In this document: positions 3,347-18,209 of the stretch, in pieces | Position numbering within the stretch: position 1 is the stretch's first letter | Layout of the letters: each line of letters starts with the position of its first letter | Origin: Clostridia bacterium | GTDB taxonomy: Bacteria; Bacillota_A; Clostridia; Oscillospirales; CAG-272 | Assembly: GCA_017632155.1 (NCBI GenBank) | Contig: JAGBRZ010000188.1 | Location: 1 to 24,489 of the forward strand | Length of the DNA: 24,489 nt | Direction: 5' to 3' | Notes under the pieces: model-generated | What the model saw: only the letters and a program-made list of their open reading frames with translations | Databases searched by the model: none | Told to the model about the DNA's origin: nothing | Made by a program: the position numbers and the translations under genes

Positions 3347-3462
3347 AGTTTTAGAGCGCAAACTTTATTATTCTGCGGTTTGCCCACCATTTTGACCCAG
3401 CAAGGTTTGAGAATGAAAATTTGCATGTTACACCACCAAATATGCAACTCGCGCAGATTGGG

Positions 3463-3491
3463 TTGACAGGGGAGCTCGTTTGCTGTATAAT
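3463..3491 (+). promoter_or_regulatory. Consensus sigma-A promoter of the LytTR gene
   Basis: TTGACA at 3463-3468, 17-base spacer, TATAAT at 3486-3491: a perfect consensus. Transcription would start about 3498, giving a leader of only about 16 bases that begins almost at the AAGGAGG ribosome binding site (3500-3506). Just upstream, TTGCAT (3421-3426) and ATGCAA (3442-3447) form an inverted repeat that could be an operator. Confidence 0.9.
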
Positions 3492-3513
3492 GATGTCAGA
3501 AGGAGGCGATGGA

Positions 3514-3951
3514 ATGAAGATCACAATAAACTACGATCCGAAAATCACCGAAACCGAGGTGGTGATCACCTGCCGCGAGCTGACGGGCGAGGTCAGGGAG
3601 ATGATCTCGGCGGTCACGCTGGCGGATAACACCATAACGGGCACCCTCGACGACGAGACCTATTTTATTCCGCTCGGGGATATTCTGTATTTTGAATCGG
3701 TGGACAGGAAAGTGTTTTTCTATACCTCGGATCAAACCTACGAAACGATGTCAAAAATGTACGCCATCGAGGAGAGGCTGGCGGACACATATTTTGCGCG
3801 CGTGGCGAAGTCGTTTATAGTCAATCTCAAAAAGGTGAGAAGCATCAAGGCAGAGCGCGCAAGCCGCATGTGCCTGACGCTTCAGAACGGCGAAAAGCTG
3901 ATCGTGTCAAGGCAGTATCTGGGTACGATCAAGGAGAAATTGGGGGTGTGA
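3514..3951 (+). CDS. LytTR-family DNA-binding transcriptional regulator
   Basis: 145 residues. The C-terminal ~95 residues match the LytTR domain: an IPLGDILYFESVDRKVFFYT stretch, then YETMSKMYAIEERL, FARVAKSFIVNLKKVRSI and the NGEKLIVSRQYLGTIKEKLG end. The N-terminal ~45 residues form a short alpha/beta segment rather than a receiver domain, so this is not a classical AgrA/LytR response regulator but the small stand-alone type commonly paired with DUF3021 membrane proteins. The ATG at 3514 is chosen because the AAGGAGG at 3500-3506 is correctly spaced and the consensus promoter lies directly upstream; an in-frame ATG at 3421 precedes the promoter and cannot be used from it. The DUF3021 gene starts three bases after the stop, so the two are co-transcribed. 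The target is probably its own operon and/or membrane or transport genes elsewhere (inference). Confidence 0.92.
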   Translation: MKITINYDPKITETEVVITCRELTGEVREMISAVTLADNTITGTLDDETYFIPLGDILYFESVDRKVFFYTSDQTYETMSKMYAIEERLADTYFARVAKSFIVNLKKVRSIKAERASRMCLTLQNGEKLIVSRQYLGTIKEKLGV

Positions 3952-3954
3952 ATT

Positions 3955-4389
3955 ATGGATAAGATCAGAAAATTTGCTGAAAAGTATTTCCGCCTTGTCG
4001 GAGTAATTTCGTTGTTTATTGTGGTGACTTTCTCAATTTTCGATTTAGCTTCACCGTCAACAACGCTTCATATTTTGAGAATGATGATGGTTGCGAATGT
4101 GCCCACCGCGGTATTTAGCCTTTTGCTTTTTGAGAATGGACCTTACGAGTTGTCGTTTAGAGTTAGGTGGAATCTTTATTCGGTTTTGCAAGGTTTGAAT
4201 TTCGCTGTAATGTTAATTTTTTTCGGCTTCGAAAAATCATCCACGGGATGGGAAATCGCGTTGCATTCCATTTATGTGGTTCTTTCTTACGTGATCATAT
4301 TTGCTGTTGCGTATTTCATTCTTAAGGTGATTCATAAAAGAAAGATTCAAAAGATCAACGAAAAGCTGAATGAACTCAATAAAGAATGA
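3955..4389 (+). CDS. DUF3021 family membrane protein, partner of the LytTR regulator
   Basis: 144 residues with four hydrophobic segments (approximately residues 14-32, 44-60, 78-94 and 106-126), a short basic N terminus and a highly charged C-terminal tail rich in K and E. Length, topology and position directly after a LytTR gene fit the DUF3021 family, thought to control the activity of the cognate LytTR protein from the membrane; the mechanism is inferred. The start codon lies three bases after the LytTR stop, so translation is probably coupled, with GGGGG of the preceding codons as a weak Shine-Dalgarno. The gene is visibly richer in A+T than the arg genes. A strong terminator follows at once. 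Confidence 0.85.
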   Translation: MDKIRKFAEKYFRLVGVISLFIVVTFSIFDLASPSTTLHILRMMMVANVPTAVFSLLLFENGPYELSFRVRWNLYSVLQGLNFAVMLIFFGFEKSSTGWEIALHSIYVVLSYVIIFAVAYFILKVIHKRKIQKINEKLNELNKE

Positions 4390-7261: not shown

Positions 7262-10042
7262 TTATTTTGTTGCAACTTGGCCGTCGGTGCACTTGATTGC
7301 GGTGACAGCGGTGTTCTTGAGCCAATCAGATCCCTTTGTGACGATGGACCACTGGGTAACTGTTCCGTCATAATTAACTGTGGAAAGACTCTTGCAACCT
7401 TCGAAAGCGTATGCTTCTACCGCCATAATATCTGCTGTGAGTGTGACGGTTGTCAGTGCAGAGCAATCCAAAAATGCGCCTCTTGCAATGGTTTCAACGT
7501 TCTTGCCAAGGGTGAGAGAAGTGAGAGATTTGCATCCGCGGAATGCATACTGACCGATGGTTTTTACGTAATCGGAGATAATTACGGTATGCAGATTTGA
7601 GCATCCGTTGAAGGCGTCCATATTGATCGCAATAAAGTCGATAGGTTCAGGACCTTCTCCTACAGTAAGCTTTTGAAGAGCGTCGCAGCCGGAAAATGCC
7701 GTGGAGCCTATGGTCTTAACAGACGAGGGGATGACGAGCTCAACAATGCCGTCGCAATCCTGGAATGCATAAGACCAGATCTCTTCAAGACCCTGAGGGA
7801 GTACAACGGATACAAGAGCATCACAGTTTTTGAAAGCGTATGATCCGATGTGCTTGAGCGAAGCGGGGAAGTTTATGATTGCAAGAGAATCATTGCCGTT
7901 GAAGCATTCATTTCCGATCTTTTCCAAGCTGCTGCCAATAGATACGGTAACAAGAGCATCGCATCCCTGGAAAGCGTAGTTTCCGATAGAAGAAACGTTG
8001 TTTCCGATAGTTACGGTGACCAGAGCGGGGCAATCCTTGAATGCGTAATTGCCAATGACGGTAAGCTCTTCGGGGATAGAGTCATCACCGATGGTAACTG
8101 TTGCGAGAGCCTTGCAACCCTGGAAAGCAGAGGATCCGACGTTCTTTACGGCTCCGGGAATATTAATGGTCTGAACAAGGTTACAGCCGTAAAATGCGTA
8201 GTTTCCGATGGAAGTCAGCGATTTTCCGAGAGTGATGGAGGAAACTCCGGCGCAGTTTTCGAAAGCGCTGTTACCGATAGTTTCGACAGAATCGGGAATA
8301 ACAATAATGGAAAGACGCGCACAGTTTTTGAATGCGCTGTTTTCAATAGCTTTGATGTTGGAACCGAAGGTGATACTTGTGAGCGATTTACAGCCCGAGA
8401 AGCAGGATGATCCAATGGTGCCGACAGTATTACCGAGAACAACTGTCTTGAGCTCTTCGCAGCCGTTAAATCCGCTTATAGTGGTGAGCTCGGTGGGAGC
8501 GGTAGCAGCACTTTCAAACACAACGCTTTCAAGCTTTGTGATTCCGCCGAAGGCAGAGGATCCGATCTCCTTGACGGTTGCGGGGATAACGAGCTCCTTG
8601 ACGCCCTTACAGTTTTCAAATGCACTGGTTCCAATGGTGATAAGTGATTTGCCGAGGGTGATCGAGGCAACGGATGTACATCCGTAGAAAGCGCTCTGAG
8701 CGACCGTGGTTACTGTGTCAGGTATTGCGATTGAGGTGAGTGCGGTGCAATTATAGAATGAATCGCGACCGATCTCGGTCAGGTTCTTGCCGAAGGTGAC
8801 GCTTGTGAGAGCCTTGCAGTTTCTGAATGCACGGGGAACGATGACCGTTACGTTATCTGTGAGAACGGCGGTGGTCAGCGCGCTGCAATCCGAGAACATG
8901 TATTCACCGAGATAATCTGCGGTAACCTTGGTAAGAGAGGTGCATTCCGAGAAGATAGAGGATTCTGATTTCTTGATGGTTGCGGGAATGTATACCTCGG
9001 TAAGAGAAGTGCAGTTCGCAAAAGCATAAGCTTCGATTTCTTCTACCTTGCCGAGAGAGAGCTTGGCAATTTGCGAGCATTTGCGGAATGCATAGTATCC
9101 GATCTTGGTTACGCTATCGGGAATGATGACTTCGTTGAGTGACGTACAGTTATAGAAAGCGTAGTCATTGATGGTTTCCAGCGACTTGCCAAATGTAACC
9201 GATCTCAGCGAGGTACAGTTATAAAAAGCGTCATTGCTGATTAGGGTAATGGTGTCGGGAATAACAACACTTGTGATGTTCTTGTTGTTCTTGAAAGCGC
9301 TTGAGGAGATGCCGACAACGAATTTGCCCTCGTGGGTCATGGGGATGATAATATCGGTTGCGGTGGAGTTTCCGATGCCGGCAACGTAGTATCCGTCGGA
9401 GCCGGAAGAGAATTTAAGGTTGTGGTCAGCTTTCTCATTTTCTCCACAAACGGTACACTTGCCACCCGAGAAGGTGTGGGAAGCGAGAAGAACGGTTTCG
9501 ATGTTCTTGAGAACCTTTTCGCAGCGAGAGCACTTCTCACCGGCGGTGGTGCCGTAGGAATTGCAGGTTGCTGCAACAGCAGGAATCTCGACTGTAGCGT
9601 GTCCGAGTGCTTCGAGGGTTTCCTGCTCCTTTACGGTGGTGTAGCAAACCGAGCAGTAGCTGCTTTCGGTATAGCCGCTCTTGGTGCAGGTGGGTTCCTT
9701 GCCCTCGTTTACAACCACGGTGTGAGCGATGGTTGCGATCTCTTGCTGTTCGAGGGTGGTGTTGCCGCAAACGGTGCAACGCTTACCGTCGGTGTAACCG
9801 ACTTCGGAGCAGGTTGCCTCGCGGCCGGGAACGGTCTCCTCGGTATGAGAAGCACCTTCGATGTACTCACGCTCGCGCTCTTCGCATTTTTCACATGTAC
9901 GCGATTGAATGCCTTTTTCTGCGCAGGTGGGTTCTTTTGTAACCTTCCAATCACTCCATTCGTGCTTGCATTCCTTTTCACAGGAAGCGAAGCAAACGAG
10001 GCAGAGGAGCAATGAAAGGATGAGAATAATGATCTTTTTCAT
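7262..10042 (-). CDS. BspA-like leucine-rich-repeat surface lipoprotein
   Basis: 926 residues. Residues 1-21 are a lipoprotein signal peptide: KK, a hydrophobic stretch, then FASC with the lipidation cysteine at 21. Residues ~24-205 hold four full and one partial ~41-residue repeats of the form C-x(9-10)-CxxC-x(12-14)-H, which could bind zinc or form disulfides. From ~235 to the end run about 28 BspA-type LRR_5 units of ~23 residues (pattern GxxAFxxCxxLxxVxIPxxVxxI). The C terminus ends in a short non-repeat tail (WLKNTAVTAIKCTDG). BspA-like proteins act outside the cell in adhesion or host binding; no enzyme domain is visible. A ribosome binding site AAAGGAA and a TTGATT-N17-TATAAT promoter precede the ATG. 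It sits between argD and argF on the same strand, which is unusual for a surface protein. Confidence 0.93.
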   Translation of the reverse strand: MKKIIILILSLLLCLVCFASCEKECKHEWSDWKVTKEPTCAEKGIQSRTCEKCEEREREYIEGASHTEETVPGREATCSEVGYTDGKRCTVCGNTTLEQQEIATIAHTVVVNEGKEPTCTKSGYTESSYCSVCYTTVKEQETLEALGHATVEIPAVAATCNSYGTTAGEKCSRCEKVLKNIETVLLASHTFSGGKCTVCGENEKADHNLKFSSGSDGYYVAGIGNSTATDIIIPMTHEGKFVVGISSSAFKNNKNITSVVIPDTITLISNDAFYNCTSLRSVTFGKSLETINDYAFYNCTSLNEVIIPDSVTKIGYYAFRKCSQIAKLSLGKVEEIEAYAFANCTSLTEVYIPATIKKSESSIFSECTSLTKVTADYLGEYMFSDCSALTTAVLTDNVTVIVPRAFRNCKALTSVTFGKNLTEIGRDSFYNCTALTSIAIPDTVTTVAQSAFYGCTSVASITLGKSLITIGTSAFENCKGVKELVIPATVKEIGSSAFGGITKLESVVFESAATAPTELTTISGFNGCEELKTVVLGNTVGTIGSSCFSGCKSLTSITFGSNIKAIENSAFKNCARLSIIVIPDSVETIGNSAFENCAGVSSITLGKSLTSIGNYAFYGCNLVQTINIPGAVKNVGSSAFQGCKALATVTIGDDSIPEELTVIGNYAFKDCPALVTVTIGNNVSSIGNYAFQGCDALVTVSIGSSLEKIGNECFNGNDSLAIINFPASLKHIGSYAFKNCDALVSVVLPQGLEEIWSYAFQDCDGIVELVIPSSVKTIGSTAFSGCDALQKLTVGEGPEPIDFIAINMDAFNGCSNLHTVIISDYVKTIGQYAFRGCKSLTSLTLGKNVETIARGAFLDCSALTTVTLTADIMAVEAYAFEGCKSLSTVNYDGTVTQWSIVTKGSDWLKNTAVTAIKCTDGQVATK

Positions 10043-14873: not shown

Positions 14874-17800
14874 CTAATCCCCATATTTCTCCATCATCTC
14901 CCTCGCTCGCTTGACGAACTCCTTGAATCTCTCGTCGTCGCGGGCGGAGTTGAACCATTCCCAGCCTTTTTTGGCGGTCATTGCGTTGTAATAGCGTGCG
15001 GGACAGGTGGTGTTGATCCACCAGGCTTCCCCGTAGTGCTCGCGGGTGCCGTCGGGGAGGTGAAGAGTGCCGTGATCGCCCTTTTCGATCTTGATGCCGC
15101 CGTAGATCTCCTTGTCGCCAACGTCAAGAAGCGTGCCGTCCGCGATCGCGAACCATTTCGGCGCAAGCTCGAAGGCTCGCTCGAGATATGCGTATGCCTC
15201 GTCCTTTAGCTCGGGCTTCTTGCATCCGAATGTGGTGCAAGCCGCCATAAAGTGCATTTCGGCATAAGCACCGAGCCACGCGGGCGCGATCTCGCCGTTT
15301 TCGTCGGTGAGCATATTTTCGATCATCTTGAGGCGATATTTTGCCCAAGCAACGCCTCGCGGCGCGCATTTCCAGGATCTGCTGTTGCGCGTAATGAAGT
15401 GCAGCATCAGGTGGAGGTTGTTTGCGGAATTACGCAGGCGCGCTTCGGGGAGCTTCTTTTCGTCCCAAATGCGCTCCTCGATGACCTCGCGCTCGACGAA
15501 TGCATATTCCGTGATGGGATCGGGGACGTTGCGGATGCCCGTCATATCCTCAAAAATGTTGATCTCGCCGTCATCGTTGCGGATATAGGTGTATTCCACC
15601 GCGCCGTAATATCCGTCGGTGAGGTCGAGCGCCTCATAGAAACGAACAAGTCCGTCCTCGAAGGGCATATAACCCTTGCCCACGCCCTCGTATGATGAAA
15701 GCTCATAGATCGCCTTCATTCCGCCTGCATAATCGTTGACGGTGCGGACGATTCCGATGCCCTCGGCGAAGTAATATTCCTTGTTTCCGCCGCGGTATGA
15801 GTGACCCGCGTCCATACCGTCGATCTTGAGCGAGAGCTTGAGGCAGTTTTCAAATGTACCCGCCTTTGTGGTGACGCTTCCGCCGTCCTCGACCGACATC
15901 GTCGTCTTGATCGGCATACGGTCGTAAAGTGAATATTCGATCACGGGAGACGCGCCAACGACCCAGGTGTCCGACCAAAGGCATTTTGTCGCATCCTGAA
16001 GAATTCCGTACATGTGGTTGAAAAGCAGGGCATCCTCTGAGGCGACATTTCCGCTTCCGTTCTTCCATTCAAAGGAGAAGCGACGGTCCTGCGTCAGATG
16101 ATATTCCCCATTCTTTTCGTGCAGGGCGGATTTCTGGAAGAAATTCCAATGCCCCGTGACCTTGGTGCCGGGGTTGAACTCGGGATCGGTGTCAAGGATC
16201 CTCCTTGCAACCTTCGCGGCAACACGGCTGTGCAGCTTTTCCATCGGAGTTACTGCAAGCTTTTCGGCAAGCTCGATCTGGCGGTAAACGTCCTCGATCT
16301 TGCAGTTGTCCTTTTCGTCATAGCTGCAATAATCGTTGCGGACGCACTCGATCATCTCAAGCCAAGAGGACTCGTCATAGCCGAAGCGCTCGCTTTCATC
16401 GTATGTTGAGATGATCGCGTTTTCGCCGTCAAAGAATCTGACCTCGTAGCTGTCAACCGACCTTAAATATTGGGAATTTCCGTCGATCGAATATTCCCAT
16501 CTGTTGCCGACCGCAAGCGGGATCAGTCCTTCGCCGCCCTTTATCTCGTATGAAGTGAGGTAAGCCGTGTCGCTGATACCGTCGAGTCTGCGCTCGTATT
16601 TTACGATACCAACGCCCGCGCGGTACCAGATCTTGTAATAGGAAGTACCGTTCCACCATTTGTATTCCTTAGACTCCCAAACGTGGCAGTTTTCAAACAC
16701 ACCCGCGGGAGTTTCGGCGCGTTCGCTGTCGGAAAGATAGGTGAGAGTCGAGCTGTCGGTGGCGGTGTAGCACTCACCCACGGGAATATCGAGGAAGAAA
16801 TAACCGTCGCAGCTGCCCGCGTTTTCGAACAACATCGAGCGCGTGTCGCAGCCCGAATGAAGATAACCTTCCCCGTAGCCGTCGCGGTTCCAGGATCTCG
16901 GCACGCCGTCGATAATTCTTATCTTATCTGCGCCGAAACCGACGGCGTATGAGTTTTTATCTGCCTGTCCGAATTTTTCTTCCATTCTTCCAAGCAAGTC
17001 AAGCGCGTTTGCTGCGAGCGAATGTACGGTATCGGACGCGGTGACAAGCTTTTGCGCCTTTTCCAGACATTCACGGCTTTCCTCATATTTCCTATCCATC
17101 ATATATCTGTATCCGAGGCGGAATATTTCGTAAGCCGTTGCACCGACAAATCCCGCTTTTTCGAGCGCGGGGATCTGCACGTCGCGCATAAATTCGATCT
17201 GCTTCTGACCGCTGTATTCTTCGTCCTCGCGGGTGAGGATAAAGCGCATTATTTCGTCGTTTTTACCGATCAGCGCCGCTTCCTTGATGCGGGCGAAGAG
17301 GTCCTCGTTCTTTTTGCCGGGTAGCCACCACCAGCCGCGCGCGAGGACGTCGGCGAGGGCGTGGTATTTATCCTTGCATTCGGGAAGGTTTTCGACCTCG
17401 GCGAGCATGTCGGAATAGACCGCCGCGAAGCCGCTTTTGTCGCTCATGATCTGCCAGAGCTTGATCTCTTCAACCTTCTTCATTACTCTCAGGACGAGAG
17501 TGTCGTTTGCCTTTTCATTCATAGCACAAAGTTCCTTTCTCAGCTTTTTTCTGCCTTCGTGGAGCTGGGATTTGACGGTGCCGACAGAAATTTGCATTTT
17601 TTTCGCGATTTCGGCGACCGAAAGCTCCTCGAAGTAATGAAGAGTGATCACGCGGCGCACCTTCTCGGGAAGCGAGAGGACGGTGCGGTTAAGCTCTTCC
17701 TTTTCCTCGGAGATCGCGTAAAGCGAGGCGGGGTCCTGCTCGTAGTCGGTGACGTCCGCGTATTTTTCAATGTCCTCGATCGGGGCAAAGGGACGGTAGC

Positions 17801-18068
17801 GGCGCACGGTGTTTTTCGCGCTGAACATTGCGATCTTGCACACCCAAGCGAGGAATTTTGCGGGCTCGGAGAGGGTATCGAGCTTCATCCACGCGGTGAC
17901 GAATGCATCCTGCGAGGCGTCCTCTGCCATAAAGTGATTGTGCGTGACCGATGCCGCCGCCGCGATGACGGAGTTCTGATGCCGCACCACAAGCGCCTCA
18001 AACGCTTCCTTTTCGCCCGCAAGCGTCAAAAGCACCAGCGTTTCGTCGTTTTGATTTCTGTAATTCAC
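14874..18068 (-). CDS. Giant ECF sigma factor fused to a ~880-residue unknown C-terminal region
   Basis: 1064 residues. Residues ~20-92 are sigma-70 region 2 (FEALVVRHQNSVI, DASQDAFVTAWMKL, FLAWVCKIAMFSAKNTVRR) and ~125-182 region 4 with a helix-turn-helix (LPEKVRRVITLHYFEELS, AEIAKKMQISVGTVKSQLHE, GRKKLRKEL), the plan of an ECF sigma factor, normally ~170-200 residues. The rest contains an alpha-helical, TPR-like part (~185-365), two related beta modules (TPAGVFENC 453-461 then AGVGIVKYE 484-492; TKAGTFENC 734-742 then AEGIGIVRT 768-776, each followed by a SYE...G...P stretch), and a second helical TPR-like part (~880-1064). No signal peptide or membrane helix is visible, so it is probably cytoplasmic. 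The start is GTG at 18068 with AAAGGAG upstream. No anti-sigma gene is adjacent; the C-terminal region may be the sensor or inhibitor (inference). Confidence 0.9.
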   Translation of the reverse strand: MNYRNQNDETLVLLTLAGEKEAFEALVVRHQNSVIAAAASVTHNHFMAEDASQDAFVTAWMKLDTLSEPAKFLAWVCKIAMFSAKNTVRRYRPFAPIEDIEKYADVTDYEQDPASLYAISEEKEELNRTVLSLPEKVRRVITLHYFEELSVAEIAKKMQISVGTVKSQLHEGRKKLRKELCAMNEKANDTLVLRVMKKVEEIKLWQIMSDKSGFAAVYSDMLAEVENLPECKDKYHALADVLARGWWWLPGKKNEDLFARIKEAALIGKNDEIMRFILTREDEEYSGQKQIEFMRDVQIPALEKAGFVGATAYEIFRLGYRYMMDRKYEESRECLEKAQKLVTASDTVHSLAANALDLLGRMEEKFGQADKNSYAVGFGADKIRIIDGVPRSWNRDGYGEGYLHSGCDTRSMLFENAGSCDGYFFLDIPVGECYTATDSSTLTYLSDSERAETPAGVFENCHVWESKEYKWWNGTSYYKIWYRAGVGIVKYERRLDGISDTAYLTSYEIKGGEGLIPLAVGNRWEYSIDGNSQYLRSVDSYEVRFFDGENAIISTYDESERFGYDESSWLEMIECVRNDYCSYDEKDNCKIEDVYRQIELAEKLAVTPMEKLHSRVAAKVARRILDTDPEFNPGTKVTGHWNFFQKSALHEKNGEYHLTQDRRFSFEWKNGSGNVASEDALLFNHMYGILQDATKCLWSDTWVVGASPVIEYSLYDRMPIKTTMSVEDGGSVTTKAGTFENCLKLSLKIDGMDAGHSYRGGNKEYYFAEGIGIVRTVNDYAGGMKAIYELSSYEGVGKGYMPFEDGLVRFYEALDLTDGYYGAVEYTYIRNDDGEINIFEDMTGIRNVPDPITEYAFVEREVIEERIWDEKKLPEARLRNSANNLHLMLHFITRNSRSWKCAPRGVAWAKYRLKMIENMLTDENGEIAPAWLGAYAEMHFMAACTTFGCKKPELKDEAYAYLERAFELAPKWFAIADGTLLDVGDKEIYGGIKIEKGDHGTLHLPDGTREHYGEAWWINTTCPARYYNAMTAKKGWEWFNSARDDERFKEFVKRAREMMEKYGD

Positions 18069-18180
18069 TTCGCGTTCTCCTTTCGTTGTTGCCTTTTTGA
18101 ACGTTCATTTAGTAGTGTCAAGAGAACGCCCGAAGGTTGGGAAGGTTGAGAAAATTTTTCAAAAAACTTTGTGTAAGGAT

Positions 18181-18209
18181 ATTATAGCATAGATTTTGGG
18201 GTTTGTCTA
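18181..18209 (-). promoter_or_regulatory. Promoter of the sigma-fusion gene
   Basis: On minus: TAGACA (18204-18209), 17-base spacer, TATAAT (18181-18186). The leader is about 105 bases and contains the perfect palindrome TGAACGTTCA at 18098-18107, a possible regulatory site. Confidence 0.7.

Follow-up and report, generated by a model that had tools for sequence, protein, structure and literature searches.

An extracytoplasmic function sigma factor gene with a large soluble tail and a conserved, putative internal translation start at the sigma/tail junction

The sigma factor and its fused tail

We analyzed a 24,489-nt stretch of DNA from a Clostridia bacterium (contig JAGBRZ010000188.1 of assembly GCA_017632155.1; the whole stretch is referred to as the window) and found on its minus strand a single open reading frame (ORF) in which an extracytoplasmic function (ECF) sigma factor is continued by a tail of several hundred residues (Table 1). 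The junction of the two parts carries, inside the frame, a Shine-Dalgarno (SD) sequence and an ATG codon whose conservation suggests that the tail may also be made as a separate protein. Sigma regions 2 and 4 both scored above their Pfam cut-offs, as expected of an ECF sigma factor, and the protein scored 98.1 bits against TIGR02937 (cut-off, 42.9 bits).

Table 1. Features of the sigma factor gene, its tail and its upstream region (window coordinates)
Feature	Coordinates	Strand	Basis or remark
ECF sigma factor with ~880-residue tail	14874..18068	-	1064 aa, read from a GTG at 18068; coordinates include the stop
Sigma-70 region 2 (residues 26-91)	17796..17993	-	Pfam PF04542, E 1.1e-9
Sigma-70 region 4 (residues 124-178)	17535..17699	-	Pfam PF08281, E 7.9e-18; PF04545, E 9.1e-13
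Putative internal SD AGAAAGGA at the sigma/tail junction	17533..17540	-	10 nt before the internal ATG
Conserved in-frame internal ATG, codon 183	17520..17522	-	Would begin a free tail of 882 aa
TPR-like helical region (residues 186-368)	16965..17513	-	Predicted structure; sub-threshold TPR_2 match
Beta module 1, DUF3108-like (residues 369-512)	16533..16964	-	Predicted structure, profile-profile comparison, Pfam
Beta module 2 with helical insert and a further short beta stretch (residues 513-850)	15519..16532	-	Predicted structure, profile-profile comparison, Pfam
C-terminal helical domain (residues 851-1064), common to XRE-type helix-turn-helix regulators	14877..15518	-	Locus, domain searches and alignment
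ECF-like promoter AACC-N17-CACT upstream of the gene	18114..18138	-	AACC-N16/17-GTCT in most other genes of the family
Sigma-A-like promoter TAGACA-N17-TATAAT, further upstream than the ECF-like site	18181..18209	-	Weak statistics

A search with the tail (residues 190-1064; 7990 candidates scored) returned 426 proteins at E <= 0.001, and among the 120 matches listed 116 had sigma domains on the same tail. Three named relatives, with 90, 76 and 63% identity to the query, came from metagenome-assembled genomes of goat and cattle gut Clostridia; these and a homologue at 97% identity, all in other records, were unbroken. Since the homologues of the tail carry sigma domains and these relatives are uninterrupted, we regard the fusion as real, and a frameshift or missed stop between the sigma part and the tail was ruled out by the same uninterrupted homologues. 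The protein alignment had 115 rows, the query and 114 relatives. P0002, at 97% identity, was omitted, as were P0100, whose sigma part was incomplete, and four proteins that consist of the tail only.

The beta region of the tail matched the DUF3108_like family (PF21347) in two stretches with 43.4 bits, against a gathering cut-off of 27, while the best of the TPR matches (TPR_2) stayed below its cut-off (22 vs. 27 bits). The two beta modules were related to each other in profile-profile comparison (probability 96.7, E 4.3e-10). In the predicted structure the mean pLDDT (predicted local distance difference test) was 85.8 for the whole protein and 94.0 for the beta region modelled alone, and it fell below 50 at the boundary residues 180-188; a fold search with the whole protein gave matches taken up by the sigma domains. 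No hydrophobic segment was detected in the query, whose highest 19-residue Kyte-Doolittle mean was 1.24 (cut-off, 1.6), and none of the 115 aligned proteins exceeded 1.6 (highest, 1.55). A preliminary description of this DNA had held the tail to be without a recognised domain, which the PF21347 match contradicts. Its other statements about the protein agreed with our analysis: an ORF at this position, a complete ECF sigma factor with regions 2 and 4, TPR-like helices (consistent with the sub-threshold match and the predicted structure), two related beta modules, and a tail without a membrane helix. Taken together, sequence comparison gives good support to a tail that is large, soluble, conserved, modular and in part recognisable. 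We also considered a cysteine-based switch and set it aside; several cysteines are conserved, yet positions 83 and 726 are not cysteine in the query.

The C-terminal domain was first noticed in a 373-aa XRE protein adjoining a short sigma relative (L036). It was matched in 68 of 196 genomes, mostly in open frames of ~1050 or ~375-430 aa. With the C-terminal part of the XRE protein itself as the query we obtained 20 proteins, 19 of which had a helix-turn-helix (HTH) Pfam domain. HTH_3 was present in all 28 aligned XRE-type proteins, which comprised 8 of those 20 and 20 ORFs read from loci; L107, a contig-edge fragment, and a second weak match in L093 were left out. The sigma gene has no XRE HTH, and its C-terminal domain is the only part that it has in common with the XRE proteins. 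The presence of one domain on two kinds of DNA-targeting protein would fit a role in signal input. In 2 of 27 loci an XRE regulator sharing the domain adjoins the sigma gene (L036:3904-5025 and L042:4197-5321), which hints at domain capture; the XRE gene lies directly upstream on the same strand in L042 and is convergent in L036.

The internal start at the sigma/tail junction

Codon 183 lies just past region 4. In 64 distinct junction sequences it was ATG in 60 and GTG in one, and two more had an ATG two codons upstream. We defined an SD core as AAGGA, AGGAG or GGAGG at -17 to -4 and scored it in 50 representatives with <85% identity over residues 1-250, chosen from 88 genes. The core was found in 41 of the 50, as against 20.7 ± 3.2 (maximum 32 in 1000 draws) under a synonymous null drawn from each gene's own codons. 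Likewise, it preceded 40 of the 47 ATGs of column 183 but only 34 of 984 other internal ATGs. It was kept in proteins with as little as ~35% identity to the query. Codon usage at Lys178 pointed the same way: AAG outnumbered AAA by 36 to 2 where the next residue was Glu or Asp (192:198 elsewhere; Fisher p 8e-9) and was outnumbered 2 to 6 before Gly (98:81 elsewhere), the two site counts differing at p 8e-5, although the representatives are related, so that these counts are not independent events and the p values are only a guide. Because the preference flips with the following residue, codon choice at this position tracks the SD sequence (AAGGA or AAAGGA). We conclude that a selected internal start, with SD sequence and start codon conserved beyond protein constraint, is well supported by the sequence data.

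Since a selected ribosome-binding site and start codon lie in frame at the junction, two proteins are to be expected from the mRNA, the fusion and the tail on its own. Six database proteins (P0019, P0030, P0044, P0114, P0145 and P0165) begin at Met183; they were seen without their upstream DNA, and four of the six lie on contigs <3 kb. A literature search on internal translation starts found nothing, a weak negative as it covered openly licensed papers only.

Two further ECF families of the same genomes showed a comparable layout with tails unrelated to the query tail and to each other (hhalign probability 0.1-0.2). Both kinds of tail appeared soluble, as none of 30 proteins in one family and none of 31 in the other had a 19-residue mean >1.6. 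Family 3 (~430 aa; L013:712-1995, relatives L198-L227) had matches in 41 of 196 genomes. Its junction has kept the ATG and an AAAGGAG or closely similar sequence, although the encoded residues differ between members. The SD core occurred in 22 of 24 representatives (null 5.5 ± 2.0, maximum 12 in 1000; other ATGs, 11 of 177), and for low mRNA structure the start codon ranked 4th of 400 and the next codon 1st. Family 2 (~550 aa; L015:1408-3054, relatives L168-L197) was matched in 112 of 196 genomes, 7 of them with several matches, in a survey that scored at most 7 candidates per genome. Its junction, GAAGGTATG-N3-ATGGCAAGAGAA, had near-fixed nucleotides in 30 loci whose proteins are as little as ~46% identical; of the 8 columns most biased in synonymous codons (among 137; 19 representatives), 6 fell at 167-184, and the start codon ranked 1st of 523 for low structure. 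As a control, the XRE proteins (22 representatives) had no column with a conserved start and SD sequence. These results raise the prospect, which we judge as apt to prove right as wrong, that soluble-tail ECF genes of this gut Clostridia lineage are dual-product genes. With no stop codon to divide the frame, each would be translated into the fusion and also, owing to an internal ribosome-binding site under selection, into a tail by itself that serves as an anti-sigma factor in trans. Since at least three families have kept this layout on tails of unrelated kinds, it could then be a general way to build a sigma/anti-sigma pair. Second matches in L169, L191 and L184, which are more distant ECF genes, likewise have, close to the junction, an ATG with AGGAGA or AAAGGA a short way upstream.

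Proposed regulation and alternatives

The reading that we favor, and hold to be somewhat probable, is that the gene makes both a sigma-tail fusion and a free tail, and that the tail restrains the sigma part until a signal arrives. One mRNA would be translated into the fusion and, from codon 183, into the free tail. The tail would keep the sigma regions inactive, within the fusion and also in trans through the free form, in the manner of a soluble anti-sigma factor. Binding of a cytoplasmic ligand or partner to the tail might then release the sigma part, which would raise transcription at ECF-type promoters, that of its own gene included. The free tail as a protein product, its restraining and sensing role, and relief by a cytoplasmic ligand or partner are all predictions from sequence. 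The preliminary description had proposed a one-protein signalling system. A large, soluble, conserved tail on a complete ECF sigma factor agrees with that proposal, but one protein is probably not the whole system, since the internal start predicts a free tail.

Upstream of the gene, an ECF-like promoter (AACC-N16/17-GTCT; in the clade of the window, CACT replaces GTCT) was present before 28 of 35 family genes as compared to 0.33 expected in shuffles, a count that is partly post hoc because the CACT form was added after the clade of the window had been seen. The first count, with GTCT or GACT, had been 24 of 35 (shuffle control 0.21, for GTCT only). A sigma-A-like promoter preceded 19 of the 35 genes, that of the window included, vs. 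10.7 in shuffles. Autoregulation is plausible on this sequence pattern. In a genome-wide search AACCTTTT-N12/13-GTCT occurred at 25 places in 12 genomes, of which 11 lay before the gene family of the query, 1 before a shorter paralogue and 3 before other ECF genes; in the same genomes a wrong spacing gave 9 places.

Several observations weigh against the dual-product reading. Both the SD sequence and the ATG are gone in L140 (1 of the 64 junction sequences), and 9 of the 50 representatives lack an SD core as defined. The AAG share at Lys178 taken alone is 0.83, which is not extreme (Lys198, 0.92), and the relatedness of the representatives has been mentioned. Of 331 sampled columns, that of codon 183 had the least mRNA structure (-2.16 vs. 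-6.69 ± 1.59), but the low GC content there accounts for most of this (after correction, z 1.44 and rank 25 of 331), and the XRE control also showed one low-structure dip, without a start codon. In family 2 the SD sequence is only partial (GAAGG), the SD-core pattern being present in 3 of 19 representatives. The beta modules, for which a LolA/LolB-like fold was among those considered, had no clear match in the PDB, a result that does not itself argue for a new fold. Finally, the ECF-like motif also occurs before other ECF genes in these genomes, and a regulon defined by the promoter motif was rejected, with 25 places genome-wide vs. 26 for the reversed pattern. The regulon cannot be read from the motif because other ECF genes share it and its count is not above the reversed control.

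A doubtful but serious alternative is an ordinary C-terminally extended ECF sigma factor that exists at full length only, with a tail that autoinhibits by contact until a ligand releases it and with the SD sequence and ATG as a relic of a two-gene operon or as a pausing site. The fusion itself is strongly conserved, and passages of PMC8999054 describe extended ECF sigma factors such as ECF41 as single proteins with a regulatory domain. A relic, however, would decay at synonymous sites, whereas here the SD sequence persists down to ~35% identity to the query and codon choice follows it; family 3 has retained its SD sequence and ATG despite amino acid changes at the junction. Nor would a pausing site explain why a start codon follows at an almost constant spacing.

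Regulated proteolysis that frees the sigma part from the fusion has a precedent among fused sigma/anti-sigma proteins such as IutY (passages of PMC8999054), and the low pLDDT of the boundary residues would suit it. We consider it rather unlikely. With no membrane segment in the 115 aligned proteins the classical intramembrane route does not apply, and the 27 loci showed no widely recurring neighbour, the neighbours not having been screened for proteases by name.

A quorum-sensing sigma factor whose tail serves as an RRNPP-type peptide receptor is improbable; the idea comes from the TPR-like helices and from the C-terminal domain, which is also found on XRE HTH proteins with long helical tails. 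When the XRE alignment was searched against PDB profiles, 44 of the 46 hits included the HTH and the other two were designed helical repeats over residues 67-192; PlcR matched with E 4e-4 over 4-95, which does not reach the shared C-terminal domain. To our knowledge, moreover, the beta modules have no known RRNPP counterpart. An assembly or frameshift artefact fusing two genes, for which a few frame-broken relatives might be cited (L019, L139 and L156, interrupted within the sigma or TPR part), is practically negligible given the unbroken homologues in other records and dozens more single frames.

The nearest known kinds are the C-terminally extended ECF sigma factors (ECF41, ECF42) and the fused sigma/anti-sigma proteins; functionally, a sigma/anti-sigma pair packed into one frame is the likeliest comparison. 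Like ECF41 (SigJ type), the query is an ECF sigma factor without an anti-sigma factor and with a fused soluble C-terminal domain that would regulate it, but ECF41 has a SnoaL-like extension, whereas the query has a tail of other domains and a conserved internal start, with no SnoaL family among its 13 Pfam matches at E <= 1. ECF42 also has a soluble TPR-like region directly after region 4; its extension, however, is TPR-rich and ~200 aa long, as opposed to the ~880 aa of the query with beta modules, an XRE-shared domain and a sub-threshold TPR match, and no YCII-domain neighbour of the ECF42 kind was present among the 16 window proteins scanned. The fused proteins ECF48, ECF52, ECF53 and ECF243 (IutY) likewise join a sigma factor and a presumed inhibitor in one frame, but theirs are membrane-bound (up to ~400 aa in ECF48, ECF52 and ECF53), while the query has no transmembrane helix and has an internal start for the tail. 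The query tail is longer than the extensions described in passages of PMC8999054, as the preliminary description had held for known extended groups, and we did not find in it the defining features of ECF41, ECF42 or the fused anti-sigma types. The same passages name ECF262, ECF264 and ECF288 as groups with extensions and Firmicutes examples (Table 2 of PMC8999054) and state that in 15 ECF groups with extensions the mechanism is still to be studied. The DUF3108-like stretches, although above the curated cut-off, differ in context, since in the order searched the beta region sits on a sigma factor in 23 of 25 loci.

These findings bear on the control of ECF sigma factors that lack an anti-sigma gene, still an open question. 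A Pfam scan recognised no anti-sigma gene among the 16 window proteins, in line with the preliminary description; 3 of the 16 had no Pfam match, so that a partner of a new kind may be among them. If the internal start works, the absence of such a gene would be misleading, as the inhibitor would be hidden within the sigma reading frame; a fused inhibitor that can also act in trans would make a simple stoichiometric switch. In-frame internal starts that give a C-terminal product are known, for example Cas11 from CRISPR large-subunit genes and the short form of CheA. The present gene resembles these in having one frame and two products, the shorter from an internal SD sequence and ATG, but differs in what is made, a sigma factor as the longer protein and, so far predicted only, its regulatory tail as the shorter. 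Gene callers may report either product, the fusion or the free tail.

Distribution and neighbourhood

In the taxonomic family of the relatives, 72 of 196 genomes had a match at E <= 1e-40; in their class, where only two candidates were scored in each genome, 10 of 391 did at E <= 1e-30. A query with nothing but the beta region matched 26 of 197 genomes of the order. The sigma part was in frame with it in 23 of the 25 loci fetched from that search, the remaining two being L156, which is frame-broken, and L162, which lies at a contig edge. Overall, the sigma part was in frame at 69 of 72 loci, at one of them only partly; several of the 72 are the same place fetched twice, and most were found with the full-length query. 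The number of modules varied among relatives: those of ~570 aa have one module, those of ~860 aa lack the C-terminal domain, those of ~1060 aa resemble the query and those of ~1140 aa have an extra module. The 1140-aa relatives (L034:1567-4989 and L160:586-4008) carry an additional copy of the second beta module. The genomes of the three named relatives (G001, G002 and G003) had 22, 20 and 13 places, respectively, matching the query at E <= 0.001, most of which covered the sigma part only and several of which lay in open frames of 400-610 aa. In one scan of viral contigs no relative of the query was found. A 637-aa match to PF21347 was noted in genome G029.

In the window, the gene is followed on the same strand by argC of an arginine cluster, and a divergent gene for a protein with SLH and Ig domains lies upstream. 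We clustered the flanking ORFs of 27 loci, some with short flanks only and with neighbours not all annotated, and a conserved partner gene was rejected as no neighbour family recurred widely. Besides the sigma/XRE cluster, the recurrent neighbours were arginine genes in four loci (the window, L001, L002 and L051), an SLH protein in three (the window and its close relatives L001 and L002) and a BspA-type repeat protein in three; two neighbour families adjoin the shorter paralogue in L007-L009. Elsewhere in the window, the argG ORF (117-1199) matched the N-terminal HUP model solely from position 104 of the profile onward, so that its start seems incomplete or cut by the window. A LytTR DNA-binding protein is encoded at 3421-4389, followed by a small ORF without a Pfam match, and a 926-aa BspA-type leucine-rich repeat protein (7262-10042) lies between argF and argD.

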